This document shows, in pieces, positions 10,720 to 39,248 of a stretch of DNA of 39,248 nucleotides. Below the pieces are notes generated by a model. That model worked only from the letters and a program-made list of their open reading frames with translations. It had not been told where the DNA came from and made no database searches. Source of the DNA: Hyphomicrobiales bacterium. Its GTDB lineage: Bacteria; Pseudomonadota; Alphaproteobacteria; Rhizobiales; Methyloligellaceae. Numbering within the stretch: the stretch's first letter is position 1; every line of letters begins with the position of its first letter. The DNA is taken from positions 1-39,248 of the forward strand of contig PLBV01000056.1 in assembly GCA_003135455.1 (NCBI GenBank), in the 5' to 3' direction. A program made the position numbers and the translations under genes.

Positions 10720-11619
10720 ATGTGCGGAATCGTCGGGCTGTTTCTGAAGAACAAGGCGCTTGAGCCTGAGCTTGGCAGCCTGATGGCCAAGATGCTCGGC
10801 ACCATGTGCGATCGCGGGCCGGATAGCGCGGGCTTCGCCATCTATGGCTCGGGCAATCGCGAGCATGTGAAGCTCACGCTTCGCGCCGCGTCGGCGGACA
10901 CCGATTTTGCCGCTCTCGCCAAGAAGGTCGAGGCCGCGATCGGCGCTCCCGTCACCGTTGAGACCCACGCCACCCACGCTGTATTCAAGCTGCCCACGGC
11001 GTCGGAAGATAAGGCCCGCCAGGCGATCGAGGGTTCAAGCTGCGGCGTGAAGGTGGTGGGCGCTGGCACCCGCATGGAGCTTTATAAAGAGGTCGGTCGG
11101 CCCGACGCGGTGGCCAAGCGCTTCGATCTCGCGCACATGGCCGGCTCCCACGCCATCGCCCATACCCGCATGGCGACGGAATCGGCGGTGACCACCGATG
11201 GCGCCCATCCCTTCTCCACCGGCCGCGATCAATGCCTCGTGCATAACGGCTCCCTCTCCAACCACAACGGGCTCCGCCGGCAGCTCGAGCGCAAGGGCCT
11301 GCACTTCGAGACCGAGAACGACACCGAGGTGGCGGCGGGCTATCTCACCTGGCGCATGAGCGAGGGCGCTAGTCTGGGTGAGGCGCTGCAGAAGTCGCTT
11401 ACCGATCTCGACGGCTTCTACACCTTCGTCGTGGGCACCGAGAATGGCTTTGGCGTGCTGCGCGACCCTATCGCTTGCAAGCCCGCGGTGATGGCCGAGA
11501 CCGACGACTATGTCGCCTTCGGCTCCGAATATCGCGCGCTTGCCGGGCTTCCCGGTATCGACAAGGCCAAGGTCTGGGAGCCCGAGCCCGCCACGGTCTA
11601 TTTCTGGGAGCACCACTGA
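10720..11619 (+). CDS. mgsA: N-methylglutamate synthase subunit A (glutamine amidotransferase-like)
   Basis: The 299-residue product begins MCGIVGLF, so Cys2 becomes the N-terminal nucleophile of a class II glutamine amidotransferase after Met removal. CDRGPDSAGFA, HTRMATESAV and HNGSLSNH are the conserved binding loops of this domain (GlxB/PurF type). N-methylglutamate synthase, a three-subunit relative of glutamate synthase, transfers methylamine-derived nitrogen onto 2-oxoglutarate in the indirect methylamine pathway. The subunit A call follows from the three-gene order with GltS-like B and C subunits and the adjacent gmaS. The stop overlaps the next start by one base (TGATG at 11617-11621), implying coupled translation. 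The same family is sometimes named glxB, but the gmaS/mgd context decides. Confidence 0.9.
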   Translation: MCGIVGLFLKNKALEPELGSLMAKMLGTMCDRGPDSAGFAIYGSGNREHVKLTLRAASADTDFAALAKKVEAAIGAPVTVETHATHAVFKLPTASEDKARQAIEGSSCGVKVVGAGTRMELYKEVGRPDAVAKRFDLAHMAGSHAIAHTRMATESAVTTDGAHPFSTGRDQCLVHNGSLSNHNGLRRQLERKGLHFETENDTEVAAGYLTWRMSEGASLGEALQKSLTDLDGFYTFVVGTENGFGVLRDPIACKPAVMAETDDYVAFGSEYRALAGLPGIDKAKVWEPEPATVYFWEHH

Positions 11620-12308
11620 TGCCGGTGGTCGATCTCGAGGTTACGAGCTTGCGCGACTTCAATCAGATGCTGCATGGACTGGGGGATGGCACCAACGAGA
11701 CCTATTTCCGCGTCATCAATCCGCGCGGGCGCCACGCCATAGCCGCCGGCATCGACGCAGCCGTGACCGTCGAGATCGACGGCAATGCCGGCTATTACTG
11801 CGCCGGTATGAACAAGCAGGCGACCGTCATCATCAATGGCAGCGCAGGCGTGGGCGTCGCCGAGAACATGATGTCGGGCTCCGTCCGCGTCAAAGGCGAT
11901 GCCTCGGCGTCGGCCGGCGCCGCGGGCTGCGGCGGGTTGCTGGTCATCGACGGCAATGCCTCGGGCCGCTGCGGCATCTCCGCTCGCGGCATCGAGATCG
12001 TGGTCAAGGGCTCGGTGGGCCACATGTCGGCCTTCATGGCACAGGCCGGCACGTTGGTGGTGCTGGGCGATGCGGGCGAGGCCCTCGGCGACTCCATCTA
12101 TGAGGCGCGGCTTTTCGTTCGCGGCGAGGTGAAGAGCCTCGGGTCGGACTGCATCGAGAAACCCATCTCCGACGGACACAAGGACAAGCTGGGCAAGCTG
12201 CTGGAAGAAGCGGGCATGGGCGGCGAAGTGGATCTGAGCGAGTTCCGCCGCTTCGGCTCCGGCCGCACCCTCTATCACTTCCACATGGACAATCTGGGGG
12301 CTTATTGA
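11619..12308 (+). CDS. mgsB: N-methylglutamate synthase subunit B (GltS C-terminal beta-helix-like)
   Basis: The 229-residue protein is made of short Gly-rich repeats with alternating hydrophobic residues (INGSAGVGVAENM, GSVRVKGDASASAGAAGCGG, VIDGNASGRCGI). This is the right-handed beta-helix found at the C-terminus of the glutamate synthase large subunit (GXGXG domain, also in FwdC and GlxC). In GltS it is structural and helps couple the amidotransferase and synthase sites. Here it is a separate subunit of the NMG synthase. Start and stop overlap neighbours by one base on each side (11619 and 12308), so the three mgs genes are translationally linked. Confidence 0.88.
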   Translation: MPVVDLEVTSLRDFNQMLHGLGDGTNETYFRVINPRGRHAIAAGIDAAVTVEIDGNAGYYCAGMNKQATVIINGSAGVGVAENMMSGSVRVKGDASASAGAAGCGGLLVIDGNASGRCGISARGIEIVVKGSVGHMSAFMAQAGTLVVLGDAGEALGDSIYEARLFVRGEVKSLGSDCIEKPISDGHKDKLGKLLEEAGMGGEVDLSEFRRFGSGRTLYHFHMDNLGAY

Positions 12309-13648
12309 TGGGCGCGGAAAGCCGCTGGGTGCATACGCCGCCGCGTACCTCGGCCACCTTCGACGAGCACGCCATCGCCGAGATCCATCGTGCGGCGGCG
12401 ACGGGCATCTACGACATCCGCGGCTTCGGCGCCAAGCGCAAGGTGCCGCATTTCGACGATCTCCTGTTCCTCGGCGCCTCCATGAGCCGCTATCCGCTCG
12501 AGGGCTATCGCGAGCGCTGCGCCACCGACGTGGTGCTCGGCGAGCGCTTCGCCAAGAAGCCGGTGCACCTCAAGATACCCATCACTATCGCCGGCATGAG
12601 CTTTGGCTCCTTGTCGGGCGGGGCGAAGGAGGCGCTCGGCCGCGGTGCCTCGGCCGTCGGCACCTCGACCACCACCGGCGATGGCGGCATGACCGAGGAG
12701 GAGCGCCAGTCTTCCAAGATGTTGGTCTATCAGATCCTGCCCTCCCGCTATGGCATGAACCCCGATCATCTGCGCCAAGCCGACGCCATCGAGATCGTCA
12801 TCGGCCAGGGCGCCAAGCCCGGCGGCGGCGGCATGCTGCTCGGCCAGAAGATCTCGCCCCGCGTGGCCGCGATGCGCACGCTGCCCGAGGGGATCGACCA
12901 GCGCTCCGCCTGCCGCCACCCCGACTGGACCGGACCCGACGATTTGGAGATCAAGATCGAGGAGCTGCGCGAGATCACCGACTGGCAGAAGCCCATCTAC
13001 GTCAAGATCGGCGCCGCGCGCCCTTATTTCGATACCGCGCTCGCGGTGAAGGCGGGCGCCGATGTTGTGGTGCTGGACGGCATGCAGGGCGGCACCGCGG
13101 CCACGCAAGAGGTGTTCATCGAGCATGTCGGCATTCCCATCCTCGCCGCCATCCGCCCGGCGGTGCAGGCATTGCAGGAACTCGACATGCACCGCAAGGT
13201 GCAGCTCATCGTCTCGGGCGGTATCCGCAACGGCGCCGACGTGGCCAAGGCCTTGGCGCTTGGCGCCGACGCGGTCTCGATCGGCACGGCGGCGCTGATC
13301 GCGCTTGGCGACAATGCGCGCGAGCTCGACGAGGAATACCGCAAGATCGGCAGCCAGGCCGGCTCCTACGACGACTGGCACGAGGGGCGCGACCCCGCCG
13401 GCATCACCACGCAAGATCCGGAGCTGATGCAGCGCTTCGACCCCATCGCGGGCGGGCGCCGGCTCGCCAACTATCTTGCTGTGCTGACGCTGGAGACCCA
13501 GACCATCGCGCGCGCTTGCGGCAAGAGCCACGTGCACAATCTGGAGCCCGAGGACCTCGTGGCCCTCACCGTCGAGGCGGCGGCGATGGCGAAGGTGCCG
13601 CTCGCCGGCACGAATTGGATACCAGGTAAAGAGGGCGGTTCGCTCTGA
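12308..13648 (+). CDS. mgsC: N-methylglutamate synthase subunit C (FMN-binding GltS-like synthase domain)
   Basis: The 446-residue protein is the central/FMN domain of glutamate synthase as a free-standing polypeptide. Visible family features include ITIAGMSFGSLSGGAKEALG (substrate loop), GQGAKPGGGGMLLGQK, the barrel strand KIGAARPYFDTAL, and the FMN phosphate-binding stretch IVSGGIRNGADVAKALALGA. It would catalyse the reductive or transfer step of N-methylglutamate formation with the A and B subunits. The ATG 12308 overlaps the mgsB stop (TGATG); a TTG three bases earlier is not needed. The gene is intact and of normal length. GlxD is the closest alternative name. Confidence 0.9.
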   Translation: MGAESRWVHTPPRTSATFDEHAIAEIHRAAATGIYDIRGFGAKRKVPHFDDLLFLGASMSRYPLEGYRERCATDVVLGERFAKKPVHLKIPITIAGMSFGSLSGGAKEALGRGASAVGTSTTTGDGGMTEEERQSSKMLVYQILPSRYGMNPDHLRQADAIEIVIGQGAKPGGGGMLLGQKISPRVAAMRTLPEGIDQRSACRHPDWTGPDDLEIKIEELREITDWQKPIYVKIGAARPYFDTALAVKAGADVVVLDGMQGGTAATQEVFIEHVGIPILAAIRPAVQALQELDMHRKVQLIVSGGIRNGADVAKALALGADAVSIGTAALIALGDNARELDEEYRKIGSQAGSYDDWHEGRDPAGITTQDPELMQRFDPIAGGRRLANYLAVLTLETQTIARACGKSHVHNLEPEDLVALTVEAAAMAKVPLAGTNWIPGKEGGSL

Positions 13649-13668
13649 AGTCGGGGAGTAACGAAGGC

Positions 13669-14976
13669 ATGGCTATGGATCTCGCGCAGGCCGCCAAAGA
13701 ACGCGGCATCAAATATTTCCTCATCAGCTATGTCGATCTGTTCGGCACCATGCGGGCGAAGCTCGTGCCGGCGGCCGCCATCGGCGGCATGGCCAAGTCG
13801 GGAGCGGGCTTTGCCGGCTTTGCCAGCTGGCTCGACATGACGCCGGCCGATCCCGACATGCTCGCGATCCCTGATCCGGACCGCCTGATGCAGCTCCCCT
13901 GGCGCAAAGAGGTGGGCTGGCTCGCGGCCGACCCCTATATGAGCGGCAAGCTCGTCGCCCAGGCGCCGCGCAACGTGCTGAAGCGGGTGATCGCCGACGC
14001 CGCGGCCAAGGGCTATGAGCTCAAGACCGGCGTCGAATGCGAGTTCTTTCTCATCGGCGCCGACGGACAGACCATCTCCGACCTGAGCGATCATCAAGCC
14101 AAGCCCTGCTACGACCAGCAGGCGCTGATGCGCCGCTACGACGTCATCACCGAGATCTGCGATTCGATGCTGGAGCTCGGCTGGTGCCCGTATCAGAACG
14201 ACCATGAGGACGCCAATGGCCAGTTCGAGATGAACTGGCAATATGACAGCGCCCTGCGCACCGCCGATCGCCACGCCTTTTTCAAATATATGGTCAAGTC
14301 GATCGCCGAGAAGCACGGGCTCCGCGCGACCTTCATGCCGAAGCCGTTCTCGAATCTGACCGGCAATGGCTGCCACGTGCACGTCTCGCTCTGGTCGAAG
14401 GAAACGGGCAAGAACCTGTTCGAGGACGCGCAAGACCCGATGGGCCTGTCGGCGCTCGGCTATCAGTTCATCGCCGGGCTGATCCACTCGGCCGAAGCGC
14501 TCGCCGCCATCACCAATCCCACCGTCAACTCCTATAAGCGCATCAACGCGCCGCGCACGCTGTCCGGCGCGAGCTGGTCGCCCAACACCGTCACCTATAC
14601 CGGCAACAACCGCACCCACATGATCCGCATCCCCGAGGCTGGACGCTTCGAGCTCAGGCTTGCCGACGGCTCGGTCAATCCTTACGCGTTGCAGGCCGCC
14701 GTGCTCACCGCGGGGCTCGACGGCATGGAGCACAAGCGCGACCCTGGTCCGCGGCTGGACATCGACATGTATGCGGAAGGCCACACGGTGAAGGACGCCA
14801 AACGCTTGCCGCTCAATCTGCTCGATGCGCTGCGCGCGCTCGACACTTCGAGCATCCTGCGGGCCGGGCTCGGCGAGTCCTTTGTGTCGGCCTATCTCAA
14901 GCTGAAGCACGCCGACTGGAACGAGTATGCGAGCCACCTGACCGAGTGGGAGCGGCGCACGACGCTTGATTGCTGA
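13669..14976 (+). CDS. gmaS: Gamma-glutamylmethylamide synthetase (type III glutamine synthetase-like)
   Basis: GmaS ligates methylamine to glutamate with ATP, giving gamma-glutamylmethylamide, the entry step of the indirect methylamine pathway. The 435-residue product has the glutamine-synthetase core: the N-terminal beta-grasp ends in YVDLFGTMRAKLVPA, GVECEFFL supplies metal-binding Glu residues, NGCHVHVSLW contains the conserved His pair, NPTVNSYKRI is the ATP-binding signature, and RFELRLADGSVNPY follows. A pathway-specific role is supported by the location between mgsABC and mgdABCD. The start at ATG 13669 has ggggagtaacgaagg upstream; a second ATG two codons later is also possible. The frame is complete. 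Confidence 0.92.
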   Translation: MAMDLAQAAKERGIKYFLISYVDLFGTMRAKLVPAAAIGGMAKSGAGFAGFASWLDMTPADPDMLAIPDPDRLMQLPWRKEVGWLAADPYMSGKLVAQAPRNVLKRVIADAAAKGYELKTGVECEFFLIGADGQTISDLSDHQAKPCYDQQALMRRYDVITEICDSMLELGWCPYQNDHEDANGQFEMNWQYDSALRTADRHAFFKYMVKSIAEKHGLRATFMPKPFSNLTGNGCHVHVSLWSKETGKNLFEDAQDPMGLSALGYQFIAGLIHSAEALAAITNPTVNSYKRINAPRTLSGASWSPNTVTYTGNNRTHMIRIPEAGRFELRLADGSVNPYALQAAVLTAGLDGMEHKRDPGPRLDIDMYAEGHTVKDAKRLPLNLLDALRALDTSSILRAGLGESFVSAYLKLKHADWNEYASHLTEWERRTTLDC

Positions 14977-16242
14977 GTGGGCCCAAGAAGCTTGCGCTAC
15001 TCGCTTTTCAACCTCGTTTCGCAGACCTTCGCCGGCAATCGCGGCTGGACGCCCGCTTGGCGCAAACCCGCGCCCAAGCCCGCCTATGACGTGGTCATCG
15101 TCGGCGGCGGCGGCCACGGCCTCGCCACCGCCTATTACCTCGCCAAGCAGCATGGGATCTCAAATGTCGCGGTGGTGGAGAAGGGCTATCTCGGCTCGGG
15201 CAATGTTGGGCGCAACACCACCATCGTCCGCTCCAACTATCTGCTTCCAGAGAACATCGCCTTCTATGAGCGCTCGCTCAAGCTGTGGGAGGGGCTGGCG
15301 CAAGAGCTCAACTTCAACACCATGGTGAGCCAGCGCGGCGTCATCAACGTCTACCATTCCGACCCCCAGCGAAACGCCTATGTGCGGCGTGGTAACGCCA
15401 TGCGGCTCTCCGGCGCCGATGCCGAGCTGCTCAGCCGCGACCAGGTGCGCGAGCTCTTGCCCTTTGCCGATTTCGACAATGCCAGATTTCCCATCCGCGG
15501 CGCGCTGATGCAACGGCGCGGCGGCACGGTGCGCCATGACGCCGTTGCCTGGGGCTATGCGCGCGCGGCGGATGCGCAGGGCGTGGACATCATCGAGAAT
15601 TGCGAGGTGACGGGGATCAGCATCGAGCAGGGCCGGGTGAGGGGGGTGCAGACCACGCGCGGCTTCATCGGCGCGGGCAAGCTTGGGCTGGCGGTCGCCG
15701 GCAACAGCTCCCACGTCGCAGCACTCGCCGGGCTGAGGCTGCCCATCGAGAGCCATGTGATCCAGGCCTTTGTCAGCGAAGGGCTGAAGCCGCTCATCGA
15801 CAATGTCGTCACCTTCGGCGCCGGCCATTTCTATGTCAGCCAGTCCGACAAGGGCGGCCTCGTCTTCGGCGGCGATCTCGACGGCTACAACTCCTATGCC
15901 CAGCGCGGCAATCTGCCGGTGGTGGAGGACGTGGCGGAGGGCGCTTGCGCGCTGTTCCCCAATCTCGCGCGGCTCCGCATCCTGCGCAATTGGGGCGGCA
16001 TCATCGACATGACCATGGACGGCTCGCCCATCATCGACAAGACCGGGATCGGCGGCCTCTATTTCAACGGCGGCTGGTGCTATGGCGGCTTCAAGGCGAC
16101 GCCTGCCTCGGGTGCCAGCTTTGCCCATCTCATCGCCAAGGATGAGCCCGACGCGCTGATCCGCCCCTTTCGTCTCGACCGTTTCGCCCGTGGCGCGATC
16201 CTCGACGAGAAGGGCATGGGCGCCCAACCCAATCTCCATTAG
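14977..16242 (+). CDS. mgdA: N-methylglutamate dehydrogenase subunit A (sarcosine oxidase beta-like flavoprotein)
   Basis: The product (about 421 residues) carries an N-terminal dinucleotide fold VVIVGGGGHGLATAYYLA (residues about 39-56), followed by VEKGYLGSGNVGRNTTIVRSNY, which matches the covalent-flavin and substrate region of the sarcosine oxidase beta subunit. The C-terminal part has GGIIDMTMDGSPIIDK and YFNGGWCYGGFKATPASG, typical of DAO-fold oxidases. It would oxidise N-methylglutamate back to glutamate and release the methyl carbon. GTG 14977 directly follows the gmaS stop; TTG 14992, giving MRYSLFNL, is an equally plausible start because sarcosine oxidase beta subunits usually begin this way. 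The context settles the NMG dehydrogenase role over true sarcosine oxidase. Confidence 0.9.
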   Translation: MGPRSLRYSLFNLVSQTFAGNRGWTPAWRKPAPKPAYDVVIVGGGGHGLATAYYLAKQHGISNVAVVEKGYLGSGNVGRNTTIVRSNYLLPENIAFYERSLKLWEGLAQELNFNTMVSQRGVINVYHSDPQRNAYVRRGNAMRLSGADAELLSRDQVRELLPFADFDNARFPIRGALMQRRGGTVRHDAVAWGYARAADAQGVDIIENCEVTGISIEQGRVRGVQTTRGFIGAGKLGLAVAGNSSHVAALAGLRLPIESHVIQAFVSEGLKPLIDNVVTFGAGHFYVSQSDKGGLVFGGDLDGYNSYAQRGNLPVVEDVAEGACALFPNLARLRILRNWGGIIDMTMDGSPIIDKTGIGGLYFNGGWCYGGFKATPASGASFAHLIAKDEPDALIRPFRLDRFARGAILDEKGMGAQPNLH

Positions 16243-16251
16243 CGGCAGAGC

Positions 16252-16521
16252 ATGCGCATCAAATGTCCCTATTGCGGCGAGCGCGACGCGGCCGAGTTCA
16301 CCTATCTCGGTGCCGCCGATCTCGTGCGCCCCGATGCGGCAGCAAAGGACGCGGCAAGCGCCTTTTATGAGTACGTTTATATTCGCGACAATCCGGCCGG
16401 CCCCCATGCCGAGCTCTGGTATCACGCCGGCGGCTGCCGCTCCTGGCTCAGGGTCGTGCGCGATACGCGCACCCACGCGATCGCGAGCGCCGAGCTCGTC
16501 AAGCGCGACGGGACGGGCTGA
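16252..16521 (+). CDS. mgdB: N-methylglutamate dehydrogenase subunit B (sarcosine oxidase delta-like, zinc-binding)
   Basis: This is a small 89-residue subunit. It begins MRIKCPYCGERD, giving a Cys-x2-Cys pair (residues 5 and 8), with a His and Cys in WYHAGGCRSW near residues 58-63. Together these form the single zinc site of the SoxD delta family. The C-terminal VVRDTRTH pattern is also family-typical. It has a structural role in the heterotetramer. It starts ten bases after mgdA and its TGA overlaps the mgdC start by one base. Confidence 0.9.
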   Translation: MRIKCPYCGERDAAEFTYLGAADLVRPDAAAKDAASAFYEYVYIRDNPAGPHAELWYHAGGCRSWLRVVRDTRTHAIASAELVKRDGTG

Positions 16522-19508
16522 TGACGTCCTTGAGCCAAACGCAGGAGCCCTTTCGGCTCAAGACCGGCGGCCTCATCGACCGGTCGCAACCCCTTTCCTT
16601 CCGCTTCGACGGCAGGAGCTATACCGGGCGTCCGGGCGACACGCTCGCATCGGGGTTGCTGGCGAACGGCGTGCATCTCGTCGGCCGCTCGTTCAAATAT
16701 CACCGCCCGCGCGGTATCTTCACCGCCGGCCCCGAGGAGCCCAACGCGCTGGTCGAGCTCAGGCGGGGGCCGCGGGCCGAGCCCAACAGCAAGGCGACCA
16801 CCGTCGAGCTTTATGAGGGGCTGGAGGCCACGAGCCAGAACCGCTGGCCATCGCTCTCACTTGATCTTCTCTCCATCAACTCGGCTTTGAGCCCGTTCCT
16901 GGCGGCGGGCTTCTACTACAAGACGTTCATGTGGCCGGCGCGCTTCTGGAAGCGCCTCTACGAGCCGGTGATCCGCCGCGGCGCGGGGCTGGGGCGCGCC
17001 TCGCTGCAACCCGACCCCGATCTTTACGAGAAGGCTTACGCCCATTGCGACGTGCTCATCATCGGCTCTGGGCCTGCGGGGCTGATGGCGGCGCTCGCCG
17101 CCGCGCGCGCTGGCGCTCGCGTCATCCTGGCGGAGGAGGATTTCCGCTTCGGCGGGCGGCTGCTTGCCGAGAGGTTCAGCATCGACGGCATGTCAGCGGC
17201 GGAGTGGGTGGAGCGCGCGCTTGCCGAGCTTGCAAGTTTTGACAGCGTGCGGCTGATGCCGCGCACCACCGTCTATGGCGTCTACGACCAGGGCACCTAT
17301 GGCGCCGTCGAGCGCGTCAACGACCATTTGGCGGTGCCACAGGAGTTCCAGCCGCGCCAGCGTAGCTGGCACATCGTGGCCAAGCGCGCGGTGCTTGCCT
17401 CGGGCGCCATCGAGCGGACCATGGCTTTTGCCAACAACGACCGTCCCGGCGTGATGCTGGCGTCGGCCGTGCGCGCTTACGTCAATCGCTTCGGCGTGGC
17501 GCCGGGAAAACGCGTCGTGGTTTTCGCAAGTTGCGACGACGGGTGGAGGACGGCTGAGACCCTCGCCGCGACTGGCGTGGCTATCGAGGCCGTCGTCGAC
17601 ACGCGGGAGGACCAAGCGCTGCTCGCGAGCAGCTTTCCCTGGCGGGTTATCCCAGGTGGCGCGGTCGAGCGCGCACACGGCGGCCATCGTCTCCGCGGCG
17701 TCACGGTGCGCGACGCAAGCGGCGCCGCCATCGAACTCGACTGCGACCTGCTCGCCGTCGCCAATGGCTGGAACCCGTCGCTGCATCTCACCTGTCATCT
17801 GGGCGGCCGACCCGTTTGGAATGATTCAATAAGTGCGTTTGTCCCAGGCCCGCTCCCGCCCCGCATGAGCGTCGGCGGCGCGGCAGCCGGACATCTGACG
17901 CTCGCCGAAGCGATCGCCGATGGCGCGCGGCTCGGCGCCGAGGCGGCGAAAGAGACGGGGTTTGACGCCTCGCCGCCGGCTCTGCCTGGGGTCGAAGTCG
18001 AGGAGGGGACGGCCCATGTCCCGCTCTGGCGCGTGGGCGGCGGTAAAGGCCCAGCCTTTGTCGACCTGCAGAACGACGTGACCACCAAGGACATCGAGTT
18101 GGCCCACCGCGAGGGCTACGGCGCCGTCGAGCATCTGAAGCGCTACACCACGCTCGGCATGGCCACCGACCAGGGCAAGACCGCCAACGTCAACGGGCTT
18201 GCCATCATGGCCGAGATCACCGGCCGTTCGATCCCGCAGACCGGCACGACGGCATTCCGCCCACCCTATGGTCCCGTGACCTTGGGGGCGCTTGCCGGCC
18301 AGCATAGGGCCTCGCACTTCCGCCCCAAGCGCCTGCCGCCGTCCCATGCCTGGGCGGAAGAGCAGGGCGCGGTCTTGGCCGAGGCGGGGCTCTGGATCAG
18401 AGCCCAGTGGTATCCCAAGGCAGGGGAGGAGCGCTGGCAGCAAAGCGTGGCGCGGGAGGCCGCGACGGTGCGGCGCGCCGTCGGTGTCTGCGATGTCTCC
18501 ACCCTCGGCAAGATCGACATTCAGGGCGCCGACGCGGGCACCTTCCTCGATCGCGTCTACATCAACAAGATGATGATGCTCGCGGTTGGCAAGGCACGCT
18601 ATGGCGTCATGCTGCGCGAGGACGGCTTCGCCATGGATGACGGCACCGTCGCGCGGCTCGGGGTCCAGCACTTCGTCACCACCACCACCACCGCCAACGC
18701 CGCCAAGGTCATGCAGCATCTTGAGTTCTGCCGTCAGGTGCTGTGGCCAAATCTCGATCTGAAGCTCGTCTCGGTGACCGACCAATGGGCGCAATATTCC
18801 ATCGCCGGCCCGCGCGCCCGCGACGTGCTCGCAAAGCTCGTTGATCCCGCCTTCGACATTTCCAATGAAGCGCTGCCCCGCATGGGCGTGACTGCGCTCG
18901 AAGTCTGCGGCGGCGTGCCGGCGCGTCTCTTCCGCGTCTCCTACTCCGGCGAGCTCGCCTATGAGATCGCGGTGCCGGCACGCTATGGCGATGCCTTGAT
19001 GCGGGCCCTGATCGAGGCGGGCGAGGAGTATGGCATCGTGCCTTACGGCACCGAGGCGCTCAACGTGTTGCGCATCGAGAAGGGCCATGTGGCCGGCCCG
19101 GAGTTCAACGGCCAGACGACGGCGCGCGACCTCGGCCTTGGCGGCATGATGGCGCGCGATAAGGACTATATCGGCCGGGTGATGGCGGAGCGTCCGGCGC
19201 TGCAGGGCGTCGAGCGACCCATCCTGGTGGGGGTGATGCCGCTCCGGCCATCGCGCATCCTCTCGGCGGGCTCGCATTTTCTTGCTGCCGGCTCAGGCTA
19301 TGTCGCCGCCAATGACGAGGGCCATCTCACCTCAGTCGCCTGGTCGCCCGAGCTTGGCCACGACATCGGGCTGGGCTTCTTGAAGCGTGGGACCGACCGG
19401 TTGGGCGAACGTATCCGCGCCGTCGACCTCCTGCGTGGACAGGACGTCGAATGCGTGGTGTGCGCGCCCGTGTTCGTCGACCCGAAGGGAGAGCGGACCC
19501 GTGCCTAA
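16521..19508 (+). CDS. mgdC: N-methylglutamate dehydrogenase subunit C (sarcosine oxidase alpha-like)
   Basis: This is the large subunit, 995 residues, the usual size for this family. Domain order: residues about 25-110 are a ferredoxin-like Fer2_4-type domain (SFRFDGRSYTGRPGDTLAS, GRSFKYHRPRGIF); about 173-440 are the FAD/NAD-binding part with VLIIGSGPAGLMAALAAARAG; about 440-600 a linker with KTANVNGLAIMAEITGR; and about 605-985 an aminomethyltransferase (GCV_T) domain that binds tetrahydrofolate, with RLFRVSYSGELAYEIAVP and YGTEALNVLRIEKGH. The folate domain can capture the released C1 group as methylene-tetrahydrofolate. The protein is uninterrupted, which argues against a generally high local error rate. 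Its last bases overlap mgdD. Confidence 0.92.
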   Translation: MTSLSQTQEPFRLKTGGLIDRSQPLSFRFDGRSYTGRPGDTLASGLLANGVHLVGRSFKYHRPRGIFTAGPEEPNALVELRRGPRAEPNSKATTVELYEGLEATSQNRWPSLSLDLLSINSALSPFLAAGFYYKTFMWPARFWKRLYEPVIRRGAGLGRASLQPDPDLYEKAYAHCDVLIIGSGPAGLMAALAAARAGARVILAEEDFRFGGRLLAERFSIDGMSAAEWVERALAELASFDSVRLMPRTTVYGVYDQGTYGAVERVNDHLAVPQEFQPRQRSWHIVAKRAVLASGAIERTMAFANNDRPGVMLASAVRAYVNRFGVAPGKRVVVFASCDDGWRTAETLAATGVAIEAVVDTREDQALLASSFPWRVIPGGAVERAHGGHRLRGVTVRDASGAAIELDCDLLAVANGWNPSLHLTCHLGGRPVWNDSISAFVPGPLPPRMSVGGAAAGHLTLAEAIADGARLGAEAAKETGFDASPPALPGVEVEEGTAHVPLWRVGGGKGPAFVDLQNDVTTKDIELAHREGYGAVEHLKRYTTLGMATDQGKTANVNGLAIMAEITGRSIPQTGTTAFRPPYGPVTLGALAGQHRASHFRPKRLPPSHAWAEEQGAVLAEAGLWIRAQWYPKAGEERWQQSVAREAATVRRAVGVCDVSTLGKIDIQGADAGTFLDRVYINKMMMLAVGKARYGVMLREDGFAMDDGTVARLGVQHFVTTTTTANAAKVMQHLEFCRQVLWPNLDLKLVSVTDQWAQYSIAGPRARDVLAKLVDPAFDISNEALPRMGVTALEVCGGVPARLFRVSYSGELAYEIAVPARYGDALMRALIEAGEEYGIVPYGTEALNVLRIEKGHVAGPEFNGQTTARDLGLGGMMARDKDYIGRVMAERPALQGVERPILVGVMPLRPSRILSAGSHFLAAGSGYVAANDEGHLTSVAWSPELGHDIGLGFLKRGTDRLGERIRAVDLLRGQDVECVVCAPVFVDPKGERTRA

Positions 19509-32305: not shown

Positions 32306-33784
32306 GTGGTCGAAGGCGTGGACCACGTACGGGTGGCTGGCGCGCTCCTGCAACGGCTCTGGTATGACAGGCCAGTCCGCACCCAGCTTCTCGTCGCCGT
32401 GGGCGCCATCAACCTTCTCGCCGCGGTCGCCGGTGGTGCGGTGTCGATCCTCAACACCCGCACCGCCACTCGGGTTGAGATCGAAGCCTCGCTCGAGGTC
32501 GCCCAGCGCTTCGTCGGCGCCACCATCAAGGACCTCGCCGCGCAAGGGGAGCTCGATCAGCTCGACCAGCAGCTCCCCCTGCAGCTGAAGCATCTCCGCC
32601 ACGTGCGCATCCTGATCATGGACACCATGGGCCAGCTCACCGTGGTGTCGCCCCAGCGGGATGAGAACGCCGCCGCCACGCGTACGGCGCCCGCCTGGTT
32701 TGCCGCCTTGGTGCGTCCGCGGCTCGTCGGCCGCGCCGTGCGCGTCGTCGCCGCCGATGAGGGCAACCCCGTGGTCATCGTGGGTGAGCCGGCCGATGAG
32801 ATCGCGGAGGCCTGGCAGGATTTCTATTCGCTCGCCCTTGTCTGGCTCCTGCTCGACGCTTTGATTCTCGCGTGCTCTTTGTGGTGCTCGGCCGGGTCCT
32901 CGATCCGCTCGCCAATCTCTCCCTCGGCATGCTCAATCTCGAGGACGGCCATTACGCCACGCGCCTCAGGGCGCCCAAGGTCAAGGAGCTCGCCGTCATC
33001 ACCAATCGCTTCAATATGCTGGCCAGTGCCCTCGATACGGCGCGCGACGAGAACAGCCGCCTCTATCAGCAGCTCATCTCGGTGCAAGAGGAGGAGCGTC
33101 GCGAGATCGCCAACGAGCTGCATGACGAAGCCGGCCCCTGCCTGTTCGGCATCACGGCGAATGCCTCCTCGGTGAAGAACCTCGCCGAGCAAGTCGCCGA
33201 CGGACCCCACGCCGAGATCTCGCGGCGCGTGGGGGAGATCCTCTCCATCGCCGAGCGGCTGAAGCTGATGAACCGGGCTCTCATCAAGAAGCTCAGGCCT
33301 GGCTCGCTTGGCCGCGTCGGGCTTGCCGAGCTGCTCGACGAGCTCGTCGCGGGCTTCGAGCGCCGCCACCCGGACACCGAGATTATTCAATCCCTAGAGA
33401 CACTTGCGTCTTCCTATGGCGAGGCGATCGACCTCACCCCTCTATCGCTGCGTGCAAGAGGCGATCACCAACGCCATCCGCCATGGCAAGGCCGGCACCA
33501 TCACCATGGATCTCGTCGAGGATCTCGGGCCCCGCGGCCAAGGCCGCAAGCCGCAGGCGAACACCATTCGCCTGAGCATCAGAGACGACGGCAAGGGCAT
33601 GGCCAAAGACACGCTCAAAGGCTTCGGGTTGTCGACCATGATCGAGCGGGTGCGTTCGCTTGGCGGCAGCTGCGCGATCGACGGTGCGCCGTCCAAGGGC
33701 ACCACCATTCGCATCGAGATTCCCGTCGAACGCGGCACCGCGCCGCGCGCCCAACGCCGCGAGCTGATTGGAGTGCTGTCGTGA
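32306..33784 (+). pseudogene. MoxY-like sensor histidine kinase with two frameshifts
   Basis: The joined product would be about 492 residues from GTG 32306. It has a first membrane segment (LLVAVGAINLLAAVAGGAV), a periplasmic part and a second segment near 32840-32890. A HAMP-like region (GRVLDPLANLSLGM) follows, then the HisKA_3-type box EERREIANELHDEAGPC and an ATPase part with EAITNAIRHG, IRDDGKGM and GLSTMIERVRSLGG. Two frame changes interrupt it: one base missing near 32868-32871 (ctcgcgtgctc) and one extra C near 33436-33440 (acctcacccctc). All motifs are conserved, suggesting either recent loss or sequence errors. The NarL-type pair next to a methanol dehydrogenase recalls MoxYX of Paracoccus. 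Its stop overlaps the regulator start by four bases. Confidence 0.75.
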
Positions 33785-34444
33785 CCCGCGCCCTGGTCAT
33801 CGACGATCATCCCATCGTGCTGCAAGGGTACCGGCAGCTGCTGGAGGACGCCGGCGTCGAGCATATCGCGCAGGCGCAGAGCCTGGCCGATGGCTTCCGT
33901 CTTTACCGCATGGAGCGCCCCGACGTGATCATCGTCGACCTTGCCATGCGCACCGGCGCGCTGGGCGTGCTCTCCTTCATCCGCCGCTTGCGTCTGCATG
34001 ATCAGCGTACGCCCATCCTCGTCTTCACCATGCACAGCGATCCCGTCATCGCGAGCCGCGCGCTGGAGATGGGCGCCAACCGGCTACGTGCTCAAGGACA
34101 CCTCCCCCGAGGAGGTGCTGAACGGCTTCCAGAGAGTGCGCGACGGCAGGCCTTATCTCAGCCACGACCTCGCCTCGGAGGTCGCCTTCATGGAGGCGCG
34201 GGGGACGACCAATCCCTTGAAGCGCATGACGGTACGCGAGCTGCAAACGCTCGCACTCGTGGCCGAGGGCAAGCCTTACGGCGTCATCGCCGAGCATCTG
34301 CATGTCAGCTACAAGACGGTGGCCAACACCTCCACCCAGCTGAAGGCGAAGCTCGGCGTGCGCACGCTGCCCGAGCTCATGCGCATCGCTATCCAGCACC
34401 TGCCGGCGACGCCGGCGCGAGGTCCCAAGGGGGAGTGGTCCTGA
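33781..34444 (+). pseudogene. MoxX-like NarL-family response regulator with one frameshift
   Basis: Joined, the product is about 220 residues from GTG 33781. The receiver has VIDDHPIVLQGYRQLLED, the phospho-acceptor Asp in VIIVDLAM and the Thr in LVFTMHSD; the helix-turn-helix has MTVRELQTLALVAEGKPYGVIA and SYKTVANTSTQLKAKLG. Between them, at gccaaccggctacg (about 34077-34083), one extra base breaks the frame, before GYVLKDTSPEE, which holds the catalytic Lys. It reads as a regulator of the methanol genes downstream by location, with the candidate operators at 32132 and 34738 as targets. Confidence 0.75.
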
Positions 34445-35082: not shown

Positions 35083-36972
35083 ATGAACTACCTGAAAACT
35101 GGCGTTGTCGCCGGGGGGCTCATCGCGTTGATGATGGGTCTCTCGGGGGCAGCTATTGCCGGCTCCGATGAGGAGCAGCTGGCAAGAATGAAGGATCCGG
35201 ATCAGTGGCCTGCCCCTGGCCGTGATTTCGCGATGACCCGTCACAGCAACTTGGCTGACATCAACACGGGTAACGTCAGCAAGCTGCAGATGGTTTGGCT
35301 GCAGGGAACCAACGCGCTCCGTGGCCATGAGGGTCAGCCCCTCGTGATCAAGGACGTCGGTGGCAAGCCCATGCTGTACATGATCAGCGGCTGCCCGGCC
35401 ATGGTCAACTGCAACGTGGTGCAGGCTTTGGATCTGACCGATGCGGACAACCCGAAAGAAATCTGGAACTACGTCAAGAAGACCGACCGTGATGAGTCCG
35501 CTGTTCCGCGCGCTTGTTGCGACACGGTCAACCGTGGCGGTTCCTATGCCGACGGCAAGTTCGTGTTTGGGACCCTCGACGGCTTCGTGATTGCCCTCGA
35601 CGGCCAGACCGGCAAGGAAGTCTGGGTGGTCAAGAGTGCATGGCCCGAGAAGGGTGAGACCATCACCCCGGCTCCGCTGATTGCCGACGACAAGGTCATC
35701 ATCGGCTTCGGCGGCGACGAGTTCGCTGCACGCGGTCGCGTGACGGCATATAACCTGAAAGACGGCAGCATCGCTTGGCAGTGCCACTCGACTGGTTCTG
35801 ACAAGGACGTCTGCCTGACGGCCGATACCAACAAAGCCAACCCGCAATTCGGTCAGGCTGGTTCCGATCTCGGGATCAAGACTTTCCCGGGCGAGGATTG
35901 GAAGATTGGTGGCGGCGCCGCTTGGGGCTGGTACACCTACGACCCCGAGCTGAAGATGGTCTACTACTCGACCGGTAACCCCGGCCTGTGGAGCCCGGCC
36001 TATCGTTGCCCCGACAAGACCAACGAAGAGTGCCAGAACGGCAACTTTGACAACAAGTGGTCGATGACCATCTTCGGCCGCAAGGTTGATAACGGTGAGG
36101 CAGTCTTTGCCTACCAGATGACACCCTTCGATCAGTGGGACTATGACGGTGTGAACGAGAATATCCTCACCGACATGGACGTCGACGGCAAGAAGCACAA
36201 GACGCTTAGCCACTTCGACCGTAACGGCTTTGCCTACGTGCTCGATCGCACTGACGGCACCCTGCTCCGCGCCACGAAATATGTGACCGTGGACTGGGCC
36301 GAGAAGATCGACATGAAGACGGGCCGTCCGGTGAAGGTGCTTGAGCACTCTCCGCTGGAGCGTGGTCGTAACGTCGAAGCTTGCCCGTCGGCCATGGGGG
36401 GCAAGGACCAGCAGCCTGGTTCAGTCGATCCCAAGGAGCCGAGCAAGTTCTACATGCCCACCAACAACTGGTGCATGGAGCTTGAGCCGCAGGAGCGCAC
36501 GCACACGAACCAGGGCACGGTCTACGTGTTCGCGAACGTGTACATGTATCCTGAGAAGCCCGGCACGACTGGCAAGGTCAAGAAGTTTGACGTCTTGACT
36601 GGCAAGTCCGACTGGGAAGTTGCGGATCAGTATCCCAACTGGGGCGGCACGATGAACACTGACGGTGGTCTGGTGTTCTACGGTAGCTTGGGCGGTGATT
36701 TCCGCGCACTCGACCGGAAGAGCGGCAAGATCCTGTGGAGCCGCAGGCTCGGTTCCGGCATTATCGGCAACCCGATCACCTACAAGCTCGGTGGCAAGCA
36801 GTATGTCGGCGTCTATTCGGGCATCGGCGGCTGGATTGGTGTGCCGGTTACCGCTGGTCTGGATCTGACCGACAAGTTCGGCGCCATCGGTGCTACGGCC
36901 ATGACCAAGGCCGCCAACCTGGACAAGATTCCCCAGGGCGGCGAGCTGAACACCTTCCGGGTCTTCGAATAA
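35083..36972 (+). CDS. xoxF: XoxF-type lanthanide-dependent methanol dehydrogenase, large subunit
   Basis: The 629-residue PQQ enzyme oxidises methanol in the periplasm. It has a signal peptide (residues 1-26) and an eight-bladed propeller pattern with W-docking repeats (GKEVWVVKSAW, GKILWSRRLGSG). The vicinal disulfide CC is at 145-146 (RACCDTVNRG). The catalytic Asp is D353 in FDQWDYDG. D355, two residues on, is the extra Asp that coordinates the lanthanide and marks XoxF as opposed to calcium-type MxaF, which has Ala there. Family members often read HDEWDYDG; here it is FDQWDYDG. The upstream gggagaggag is a strong ribosome site. Codon choice (many GGT, CGT, GCT) differs from the neighbours and suggests high expression. 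No mxaI-like small subunit is seen nearby. The clade within XoxF cannot be assigned with confidence by eye. Confidence 0.95.
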   Translation: MNYLKTGVVAGGLIALMMGLSGAAIAGSDEEQLARMKDPDQWPAPGRDFAMTRHSNLADINTGNVSKLQMVWLQGTNALRGHEGQPLVIKDVGGKPMLYMISGCPAMVNCNVVQALDLTDADNPKEIWNYVKKTDRDESAVPRACCDTVNRGGSYADGKFVFGTLDGFVIALDGQTGKEVWVVKSAWPEKGETITPAPLIADDKVIIGFGGDEFAARGRVTAYNLKDGSIAWQCHSTGSDKDVCLTADTNKANPQFGQAGSDLGIKTFPGEDWKIGGGAAWGWYTYDPELKMVYYSTGNPGLWSPAYRCPDKTNEECQNGNFDNKWSMTIFGRKVDNGEAVFAYQMTPFDQWDYDGVNENILTDMDVDGKKHKTLSHFDRNGFAYVLDRTDGTLLRATKYVTVDWAEKIDMKTGRPVKVLEHSPLERGRNVEACPSAMGGKDQQPGSVDPKEPSKFYMPTNNWCMELEPQERTHTNQGTVYVFANVYMYPEKPGTTGKVKKFDVLTGKSDWEVADQYPNWGGTMNTDGGLVFYGSLGGDFRALDRKSGKILWSRRLGSGIIGNPITYKLGGKQYVGVYSGIGGWIGVPVTAGLDLTDKFGAIGATAMTKAANLDKIPQGGELNTFRVFE

Positions 36973-36993
36973 TCTAGACCCGCTAGGCTAATG

Positions 36994-37029
36994 GGACGCC
37001 CGGTGCCCTTGTGGCATCGGGCGTCCTTT
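36994..37029 (+). terminator. Rho-independent terminator after xoxF
   Basis: ggacgcccggtgcc (36994-37007) pairs with ggcatcgggcgtcc (37013-37026), with one weak pair, over a five-base loop and a short T-run. It would limit read-through from xoxF into the next gene, so xoxF can be produced in excess. Confidence 0.8.
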
Positions 37030-37151: not shown

Positions 37152-39002
37152 ATGCCCATGCCCCTGTCCTTGCCCATATCGCTGCGCATGTCGCTGCGCC
37201 CCCTTCTGTTAGCGCTTTGCCTTGCTGCTTTCGGAATGGCCTCGGGCCAGGTCCTCGCCGCCAAGGGCGACATGAAGCGAGACCTGAGCAAAGAATTCGA
37301 CGATCTCACCCCGAGCGAGAAGATCGCCACCCGGGCCGCAGCCAAGGCGGTTTACAAGGGCAAGAAGCTCGGCCGGTTTGTGATCTGTGCCGACCCCGGC
37401 AACATGCCGTTCTCAAACGACAAGCTTGAAGGCTTCGAGAACAAACTCGGTAACCTGCTTGCCGAGGCCATGGGCGCGAGAGTCAGCTTCTATTGGCGTC
37501 CGTTTCTCGAGCGCGCCTTGACTCGGGACACTTTCGACGCCGCGATGTGCGACGTGATGATTGACGTCCCCGCTAATTACGGCCGTATGCTCACGACTAA
37601 CCCGATCTATCGCACAACCTACGTGCTTGCGACCCGGAGCGACAAAAACCTCGACATCAAAAGCCTCGATGACCCGAGACTCAAGGAACTGAAGATCGGC
37701 GTGTTCCAGACCTCCGGCATCCGCGAGGTGCTGGCCAAGCACGGCATCGTCAACAATGTGTCGCTGCACGTGGTCACTCACGACGCGGATCTAAAGGTGG
37801 AGCATCAGCCCTGGTATCAGGTGCAGCAGGTGGTGGACGGCGATCTCGACATCGCGGCGGTGTGGGGACCGTTTGCCGGCTGGGTCAAGGCCAAGGGCGA
37901 GCCGATCAACATTCAGCCGGTCAATCTCATGGAAGATCGGGTGCCGCTCGAGTTCGACCTGGCCATCGGCGTGCGCAAGACCGACGCCTTTCTGAAATAC
38001 ATGCTGGACTTCGCCCTCGACGACAAGAAGGCAGAGGTGGAGACGATCCTCAAGGATTACGGCGTGCCGCTCGTGCAGTGCAGCCGCTGCCTCGTGCCTG
38101 GCGACCTGCCGTCCCACGGCAACTACATCGAGCTGACCCAGCAAGACTTCAAGCCGCGGCCGGACTTGGCCTCGCCTGACCAGGTGGTGACGCAGGAGAA
38201 GCTCGAGCGCTGGCTCGCTGAAGGCTCCGACCTGACCCAGGAACTGAGCAACGCCATCATCGCCAACGATCCCACCCGGGTGAAATTCCTGGTCGGCAAG
38301 GGCGCCGACGTCAACCAGCAGGACAGCCAGGGCTATCCGCCGCTGCACAACGCGGCGCGCCAGCGCCAGGCAGAGATGGTCAAGCTGCTGCTCGACCTGA
38401 AGGCCGACGTGAACGGCGTCGACAATGGCGGCATGACGCCGCTGCTCTATGCGGTGATGCGCGATCACGTGCCGACCATCAAGGTTCTGGTCGACCACGG
38501 CGCCAATGTCGAGCAGCTGGGGCCGGAAGGCTTCGGCCCGATGGCCGTCGCTATCGCCGAGGACAAGTACGAGGCGGCGAAGGCGCTTATGGAAGCCGGC
38601 GCCGACGTCAACACCACCGCCGGCGAGGAGAAGATCACGCCTTTGATGGTGGCCGCCGGTCAGACCTCGCCTGCCGAGGGCGCCATGTTCATGCCCGGCT
38701 CCACACGGCCGCTGGATATCGCCCAGGGCCTCGTCGAGCGCCGTGCCGACGTCAATGCGAAGTCGACCAAGGGCGTCACCGCGCTCATGATCGCCGCCAC
38801 CCACAACAATTCGCCCATGATCGGGCTGCTGATGCAATCGGGCGCCGACGTGACGGCAAAGGACGCGCAAGGCAAGACCGCCCTCGAAATAGCCGAGCTC
38901 AACGGCAACCACGAGGCCGCGCAAGCGATCTCGGTGTTGGGCTCGGCCATGTCTGCGAGCGCCCCGGCGCCGCAAAATGGCCAAGGGACCACCAGCCAAT
39001 GA
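37152..39002 (+). CDS. XoxJ-like periplasmic binding protein fused to C-terminal ankyrin repeats
   Basis: The 616-residue product has a signal peptide (core SLRPLLLALCLAAFGMASGQVLAA; ATG 37152 or the later ATG 37188). Residues about 72-310 are a family 3 solute-binding fold: FVICADPGNMPFSND, FDAAMCDVMIDVPANYGRM, TNPIYRTTYVLATR, VDGDLDIAAVWGPFAGW. This is the MxaJ/XoxJ family, needed for methanol dehydrogenase function. A short linker with CSRC (about residue 313) precedes about six ankyrin repeats (residues about 365-605), with repeated GADVN and TPL motifs (KGADVNQQDSQGYPPLHNAA, AGADVNTTAG, SGADVTAKDAQGKTALEIA). Standard XoxJ lacks this tail. The fusion places an ankyrin interaction surface in the periplasm. 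It is the first gene after xoxF, separated by a terminator, and overlaps the next start by four bases. Confidence 0.88.
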   Translation: MPMPLSLPISLRMSLRPLLLALCLAAFGMASGQVLAAKGDMKRDLSKEFDDLTPSEKIATRAAAKAVYKGKKLGRFVICADPGNMPFSNDKLEGFENKLGNLLAEAMGARVSFYWRPFLERALTRDTFDAAMCDVMIDVPANYGRMLTTNPIYRTTYVLATRSDKNLDIKSLDDPRLKELKIGVFQTSGIREVLAKHGIVNNVSLHVVTHDADLKVEHQPWYQVQQVVDGDLDIAAVWGPFAGWVKAKGEPINIQPVNLMEDRVPLEFDLAIGVRKTDAFLKYMLDFALDDKKAEVETILKDYGVPLVQCSRCLVPGDLPSHGNYIELTQQDFKPRPDLASPDQVVTQEKLERWLAEGSDLTQELSNAIIANDPTRVKFLVGKGADVNQQDSQGYPPLHNAARQRQAEMVKLLLDLKADVNGVDNGGMTPLLYAVMRDHVPTIKVLVDHGANVEQLGPEGFGPMAVAIAEDKYEAAKALMEAGADVNTTAGEEKITPLMVAAGQTSPAEGAMFMPGSTRPLDIAQGLVERRADVNAKSTKGVTALMIAATHNNSPMIGLLMQSGADVTAKDAQGKTALEIAELNGNHEAAQAISVLGSAMSASAPAPQNGQGTTSQ

Positions 39003-39248
39003 TCTACGCCACGTCTGATCGGCATCTTGTTTCGATTGCGCGGGCCGCGGCGATCGCCGTGGCCCTTTGTTTTGGTGCGGCCAGCGCTGCCCTGGCAGAG
39101 GACGCCGCGGCGCCGGCCGCTCCGAATGCGGCGCCCACGATGATCCCGGTGCCGGCGGCGGCGCCAACGCCCGCCAAGGGGGAGTTCGATGCGAGCTGCG
39201 CCATGGGGCTGGCTGAAGGCCAGGTGGTGAAGACCGATTGCTCGGTCA
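38999..39248 (+). CDS. Secreted protein of the xox cluster, N-terminal part only
   Basis: ATG 38999 overlaps the stop of the XoxJ-like gene (ATGA), so it is translationally coupled. The visible 83 residues include a signal peptide (residues about 12-33, AIAVALCFGAASAALA), a Pro/Ala-rich linker (VPAAAPTPAKG) and the start of a small domain EFDASCAMGLAEGQVVKTDCS. The two Cys and the pattern Met-Gly-Leu-Ala resemble small metal- or YHS-like domains that I associate loosely with methylotroph clusters, but I cannot name it. No CxxCH haem motif is visible before the window ends, so a XoxG cytochrome is not proven. Confidence 0.6.
   Translation, partial: MIYATSDRHLVSIARAAAIAVALCFGAASAALAEDAAAPAAPNAAPTMIPVPAAAPTPAKGEFDASCAMGLAEGQVVKTDCSV

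Follow-up and report, generated by a model that had tools for sequence, protein, structure and literature searches.

Members of the Hyphomicrobiales encode, directly beside the gene for a XoxF1-type methanol dehydrogenase, a protein in which a XoxJ-like binding protein is joined in one reading frame to an ankyrin-repeat domain. We call this protein J-Ank and consider it probable that it is a dedicated maturation factor for XoxF1, acting as a two-site clamp whose ankyrin arm also rests on XoxF. The fusion is real: 29 genomes (of Hyphomicrobiales and one other alphaproteobacterium), some of them assembled as a single contig, carry it at the 44 places read, and it is therefore not an accident of assembly. 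A preliminary description of the sequence had expected that such fusions may exist among relatives, and they do. Ankyrin and XoxJ proteins are each already known; their fusion and its tie to XoxF1 are not described in anything we have seen, and a full-text literature search returned no description of the fusion, of that tie or of the linked cysteine features reported below.

Domain structure of J-Ank

The stretch of DNA analyzed here (the window) is a whole contig (C9) of 39,248 bases, from a genome of 2.68 Mb in 138 contigs that is 84% complete and has Methyloceanibacter MAGs as its closest named relatives. On the forward strand, positions 37152-39002 form a single open frame of 616 codons. 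Translation probably starts at 37188, Met13 of this frame, because the three closest relatives align from residue 13 onward; the gene as delimited by frame, profiles and relatives thus spans 37188-39002 (+). Judged by eye from the translation, a signal-like N-terminus is visible from Met13, with a hydrophobic stretch ending in VLA (37188-37259, +), and the protein is predicted to be exported.

The binding-protein domain (residues 77-309; 37380-38078, +), delimited by TIGR03871, the structure 6onp and alignments, belongs to the XoxJ/MxaJ family, as had been proposed from the sequence. TIGR03871, the profile for quinoprotein-dehydrogenase-associated binding proteins, scored 247 bits, above its cut-off of 212, over about residues 76-309, and XoxJ 6onp was matched at 2e-38 over residues 78-308. 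The corresponding half of an AlphaFold2 model superposed on 6onp with a Z score of 24.9 and an rmsd of 1.7 (209 aligned residues, 35% identity) and on MxaJ 5sv6 with a Z score of 24.9 over 232 residues. With the XoxJ/ExaJ/PedG family (TIGR03871) J-Ank shares the fold, a PQQ alcohol dehydrogenase as neighbor and two cysteines of the domain, Cys79 and Cys133 being common to unfused J proteins in alignments, but it adds about 300 residues that comprise a CxxC linker and seven ankyrin units. With MxaJ of the calcium methanol dehydrogenase it shares the fold and the kind of partner enzyme, but its score on TIGR03870 (MoxJ/MxaJ), 138 bits with a cut-off of 258, places it outside that family.

It is very improbable that J-Ank is an ordinary ABC-importer solute receptor with an ankyrin tail. 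The fold class is shared with such receptors and the Pfam family SBP_bac_3 was detected at 22 bits, but this score is under the cut-off of 26.4, TIGR03871 is above its own, and the neighbor is always xoxF. The same scores removed the earlier doubt that the domain might be a common amino acid receptor.

The ankyrin domain (residues 361-602; 38232-38957, +), defined by Pfam, the AlphaFold2 model and structure comparison, is likewise a real and conserved domain, not noise. Ank_2 scored 132 bits over three stretches against a gathering score of 27, and the ankyrin half of the model aligned with the ankyrin protein 6moj at a Z score of 27.7 over 223 residues. The repeats had been put at about six; the model shows seven helix pairs, with a loop insertion in the fifth unit at about residues 503-518. 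With TIGR03871 and Ank_2 both above their cut-offs in one frame, the fusion first read from the translation is confirmed. Alignment and model place a linker between the two domains (residues 310-360; 38079-38231, +), which carries C310-S-x-C313 and G317-D-L-P-x-H-G323. The model, built from 14 sequences, has a mean pLDDT of 74.6 and a pTM of 0.47, and pLDDT is below 50 at linker residues 312-345.

Distribution and origin of the fusion

Fused genes were found in the family sample (30 genomes), in 23 of the 397 genomes of the order sample at E<=1e-60, in one of 385 genomes of the class sample (the window's own) and in two of 349 of the phylum sample (the window's own and G1023); the E<=1e-60 screens used the full-length query and would thus miss truncated forms. 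A contig scan by short exact peptides, which detects close relatives only, gave 20 loci, three of them fused; loci L031-L033 represent three genomes also present in the family sample. Plasmid records with a match to some part of J-Ank number 357, and none covers 80% of the protein. Many genomes carry two copies, each within its own xoxF cluster.

The alignment comprised 40 of the 44 proteins (39 and that of G1023), with L065 taken without its first part and with L059, L064, L070 and L095 excluded for broken or partial frames. In a quick tree of the binding-protein domains of 40 fused and 21 unfused J proteins, the fused forms make up one clade (support 99) with one state change, and the fusion is of single origin.

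Association with XoxF1

The window's xoxF (35083-36972, +) ends 180 bases before position 37152. A xoxF gene lies directly upstream of J-Ank, on the same strand, at 44 of 44 places, and the linkage expected of a XoxJ protein thus held across genomes. Within the order sample, XoxF at E<=1e-180 was found in 24 of 397 genomes, of which 23 are exactly the J-Ank genomes of that sample and no others; in the 24th, G038, the contig stops within a J gene after about its first 68 codons. This contig of G038 (a genome of another family, f10, in 500 contigs), C28 (L112), is 3.4 kb long, carries an xoxF 84-85% identical to that of the window and is possibly a stray contig.

The solved structure closest to the window's XoxF is the XoxF1-type 7o6z, with 851 bits, the next scoring 557. 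According to the portion of PMC8546591 available, an Asp before the metal-binding Glu is diagnostic of XoxF1. This residue (Asp212 of the window's protein, in GGDEF) is found in the window's XoxF and in all 35 J-Ank partners, and it is absent from nine XoxFs beside unfused J proteins and from one MxaF; by this sequence signature, the partner XoxFs are XoxF1-type. All 35 also have the additional Asp that lanthanide enzymes carry, in the motif WDYDG (as in the window) or WDFDG, the MxaF of G004 having WDYAG, and the partner XoxF1 would probably be lanthanide-dependent. Tandem xoxF pairs occur at five loci (L054, L056, L063, L065 and L070), where the copy adjoining J-Ank has GGDEF and the upstream copy has GGSEF in 5/5, with Ser for the diagnostic Asp.

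Other J proteins provide a comparison. Matches to mxaJ, mxaG and mxaI lie close together in five J-Ank genomes (G004, G009, G018, G020 and G021), and no ankyrin match was found beside mxaJ in these five mxa clusters. The MxaJ of G004 scores 342 bits on TIGR03870; unlike J-Ank, then, true MxaJ in the same genomes is without an ankyrin part. Among 11 loci with unfused J genes, ten have a XoxF nearby that is only 42-45% identical to the window's and that is provisionally labeled XoxF5, and at L048 no XoxF was found within its 9.3 kb. Because, at the loci read, neither the MxaJ of mxa clusters nor the J proteins of distant XoxFs carry ankyrin repeats, the ankyrin arm belongs with the XoxF1 branch and not with J proteins generally. 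Separately, the window's own genome holds an unfused J gene, 35% identical, on contig C15 (L051:7744-8550), with no XoxF-like gene in the 17.8 kb read.

Evolution of the ankyrin domain

Purifying selection acts on the ankyrin part. In 36 pairs more than 72% identical, omega was 0.02-0.34 for the ankyrin part and 0.01-0.24 for the XoxJ part (one value undefined), and in two pairs with the window it was 0.25-0.26 and 0.09-0.12, respectively, all of these values being rough because many dS are near or above 1. The ankyrin part is also the faster-evolving half, with a mean top-residue frequency of 0.61 vs 0.69 for the XoxJ part (39 proteins) and a mean tree distance of 1.50, against 1.01 for the XoxJ part and 0.53 for XoxF. 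The six DARPin-variable positions showed no higher conservation than the rest of the surface (0.46 vs 0.52, one-sided p 0.92, in four regular units), a null result that argues against simple binding through the concave face. Rapid change and unexceptional binding positions would suit an inert extension that adds stability or bulk only and has no specific partner. We judge such an extension quite improbable, as omega is well below 1 in 36 of 36 pairs, the ankyrin part is kept at every one of the 44 places (as found with the full-length query), and its divergence tracks that of XoxF.

Distances of the ankyrin part correlated with those of XoxF at 0.87, of the PQQ-linked binding protein at 0.83, of the XoxJ half at 0.82, of XoxG at 0.78 and of the YVTN protein at 0.76 (n=16). 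With the YVTN distances removed, the values were 0.68 for XoxF, 0.57 for the XoxJ half, 0.52 for the binding protein and 0.40 for XoxG (n=16). XoxF was still the highest correlate in 28 clusters (0.78, or 0.61 with YVTN removed), and the tree of J-Ank is in accord with that of XoxF (Mantel r 0.82, 0/2000 permutations, 34 pairs); in these correlations and in the Mantel test, species history and an old split into two paralogue groups are not fully removed, and as tests of ankyrin co-divergence they are weak because all the genes share much history. XoxF would be the likeliest target of the ankyrin arm, because it is the only neighbor constant at all places and because, of the genes compared, its divergence tracks the ankyrin part best. 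Its permanent adjacency also fits a regulatory or a storage role.

Gene neighborhood

Neighbors were counted by tblastn in the 39 clusters whose downstream side could be read. A PQQ-linked binding protein (TIGR03863-like) was present in 34 and a YVTN propeller (TIGR03866-like) in 35, and a XoxG-like cytochrome lay downstream in 23; the other 16 had no XoxG match and no CxxCH frame from J-Ank to the next conserved gene. The preliminary description had named XoxF, the cytochrome partner and the next small secreted protein as possible ankyrin ligands. XoxF stands as the likeliest of these, and the other two do not hold as a general rule because xoxG is absent from those 16 clusters, and a DUF277 protein and a YHS-like protein occur in ten and in one of the 39, respectively.

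The distribution of these neighbors bears on whether the ankyrin arm might be a scaffold for electron transfer that docks XoxG (or else the small secreted protein encoded next) at the side of XoxF. The 23 clusters with xoxG and the correlation of ankyrin with XoxG distances would agree with such docking, as would the XoxJ-XoxG fusions of Methylacidiphilum (XoxGJ, or cytochrome cGJ; PMC8498564, as far as its accessible text goes). We nevertheless find it improbable: xoxG is missing from many clusters (a count that covers the clusters only), the small proteins are rarer still, and the XoxG correlation falls to 0.33 after removing the XoxF distances, the reverse operation leaving 0.66. J-Ank resembles XoxGJ in that XoxJ is fused to a second domain, but what is joined to XoxJ is a cytochrome c domain there and ankyrin repeats here, with xoxG separate or absent; the CSRC of J-Ank is without the haem-binding His, and no cytochrome family was among the profile matches of J-Ank.

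Several further features of these loci were recorded. In the window, the J-Ank stop shares an ATGA with the start of the next gene (38999-39247, +), which is truncated where the contig ends and whose product appears secreted and, by resemblance to L067, YHS-like. In 10 of the 39 clusters, the interval between J-Ank and xoxG encodes a secreted protein roughly 280 residues long (L054:12177-13010, L032:3907-4884) that gave no match in Pfam and NCBIfam searches. A GC-rich hairpin recognized by sequence and folding (36993-37027, +) lies directly 3' of the xoxF stop, before J-Ank, and a long stem was found in each of 34 folded xoxF/J-Ank intergenic regions, a count made with no shuffled control. The hairpin may trim or protect the message, with far more XoxF than J being made.

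Upstream of xoxF are a histidine kinase and a response regulator (32345-34420, +), assigned by homology to the intact pair of relatives. In the window their frames are broken, the kinase into three pieces and the regulator into two, by either assembly indels or decay. Farther away, positions 10720-19508 hold glutamine amidotransferase, glutamate synthase large subunit and type III glutamine synthetase-like genes together with genes resembling the sarcosine oxidase beta and alpha families, a combination like that of methylamine use through N-methylglutamate. Elsewhere, in nine of nine genomes read, a stand-alone and apparently exported ankyrin protein is encoded convergently to a different PQQ dehydrogenase (L053:2368-5891 on contig C68 of the window's own genome, and L100-L107), which is a second, separate link between ankyrin and quinoprotein dehydrogenase genes.

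Cysteines of the linker and of XoxF1

The cysteine pair noticed at the junction, residues 310 and 313, is strictly kept: both are Cys in 40 of 40 aligned fused proteins, as Gly317 and Gly323 are also invariant, with Pro320 in 39 and His322 in 38. CxxC occurs in 0 of 21 readable unfused J proteins (of 22; L030, with a frame of only 95 residues, was omitted from the tail count). The partner XoxFs in turn hold two or three extra cysteine pairs, namely 104/110, 234/244 and 309/317 in the window's protein. Cys234, 244, 309 and 317 are present in 35/35, Cys104 in 31 and Cys110 in 30, the 104/110 pair being complete in 30 of the 35. These extra cysteines are absent from the nine XoxFs beside unfused J proteins, from one MxaF and from 7o6z, and two of the three pairs close loops that are missing at one end elsewhere (gap columns 110 and 317). 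Because ten XoxF1 copies not paired with an aligned J-Ank also have Cys234, 244, 309 and 317, the extra cysteines mark the XoxF1 branch and not the J-Ank-adjacent copy. The adjacent pair Cys145-146 is present in all XoxFs and the MxaF compared.

Together, the CxxC of the linker and the extra cysteines of XoxF1 suggest a redox step. J-Ank might then be an oxidative-folding factor whose CxxC makes or corrects XoxF1 disulfides, either in the extra pairs or in the ring that adjacent cysteines form over PQQ, a role we regard as unlikely. The CxxC and the XoxF1 pairs do go together, and both are missing on the unfused side, but a CxxC can instead bind metals or form structural disulfides, this one lies in a disordered linker with no thioredoxin-like fold, and the adjacent-cysteine ring is present where the J protein is without CxxC. 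The 35 XoxFs and the 40 J proteins moreover each form one clade, and the match may therefore be a single shared event. It is similarly doubtful that J-Ank combines cofactor loading and oxidative folding in one machine for a single branch of lanthanide methanol dehydrogenases. There, unfolded XoxF1 would be clamped by the ankyrin arm together with the XoxJ lobes, and the CxxC at the hinge would form or reshuffle its extra disulfides.

A proposed role in XoxF1 maturation

The reading we favor, a dedicated XoxF1 maturation factor, builds for its XoxJ half on the literature on XoxJ. XoxJ and MxaJ may bind the partly folded apo-dehydrogenase and ease the insertion of PQQ and metal (PMC12997753, in the part available), and in M. 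extorquens grown with lanthanum, loss of xoxJ equals loss of xoxF1 and xoxF2, as stated in an excerpt of PMC7391723. In PDB entries 9ism and 9iso, MxaJ is found along with the large subunit of the dehydrogenase. By analogy, J-Ank would be exported and serve the XoxF1-type, lanthanide-dependent methanol dehydrogenase. Its XoxJ half would hold the partly folded, cofactor-free enzyme while PQQ and metal enter, and the ankyrin half would be a second arm on a flexible linker that grips the same XoxF, on either that monomer or the second subunit of the homodimer.

The view that ankyrin repeats are uncommon in the periplasm, taken in the preliminary description, needs qualifying, as there are precedents in which they help enzymes. 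Exported ankyrin proteins raise catalase activity, for which stabilization of the enzyme or help in haem binding was proposed, and AnkB is such an exported protein, encoded beside a cofactor enzyme that depends on it for full activity (PMC10294975, from the sections available). The likeness is one of analogy only: AnkB stands alone, serves a haem enzyme and has no XoxJ domain, whereas J-Ank is fused and has xoxF as its neighbor. Nearer in lineage is the "xoxJ1" of Methylothermalis aethiopiae LS7-MT, a Methyloceanibacter relative, given as the cognate of xoxF1; it is probably an orthologue of J-Ank, likened here by description only, and the accessible part of PMC7996495 mentions no ankyrin part. 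For M. caenitepidi Gela4, xoxF transcripts are reported, and J-Ank is not named in the portion of PMC6417678 available.

XoxJ is the main suspect for the entry of PQQ and the rare-earth ion into XoxF. Genomes that have an armed XoxJ for XoxF1 and, for the calcium enzyme, a MxaJ with no ankyrin repeats offer a ready-made comparison, and the matching cysteine features of J-Ank and XoxF1 provide a second testable idea. A combined loading and folding machine, if true, would be a novel role for ankyrin repeats in the assembly of cell-envelope enzymes. If the arm binds XoxF, J-Ank would be a clear case of ankyrin repeats that help to assemble enzymes in the envelope of bacterial cells.
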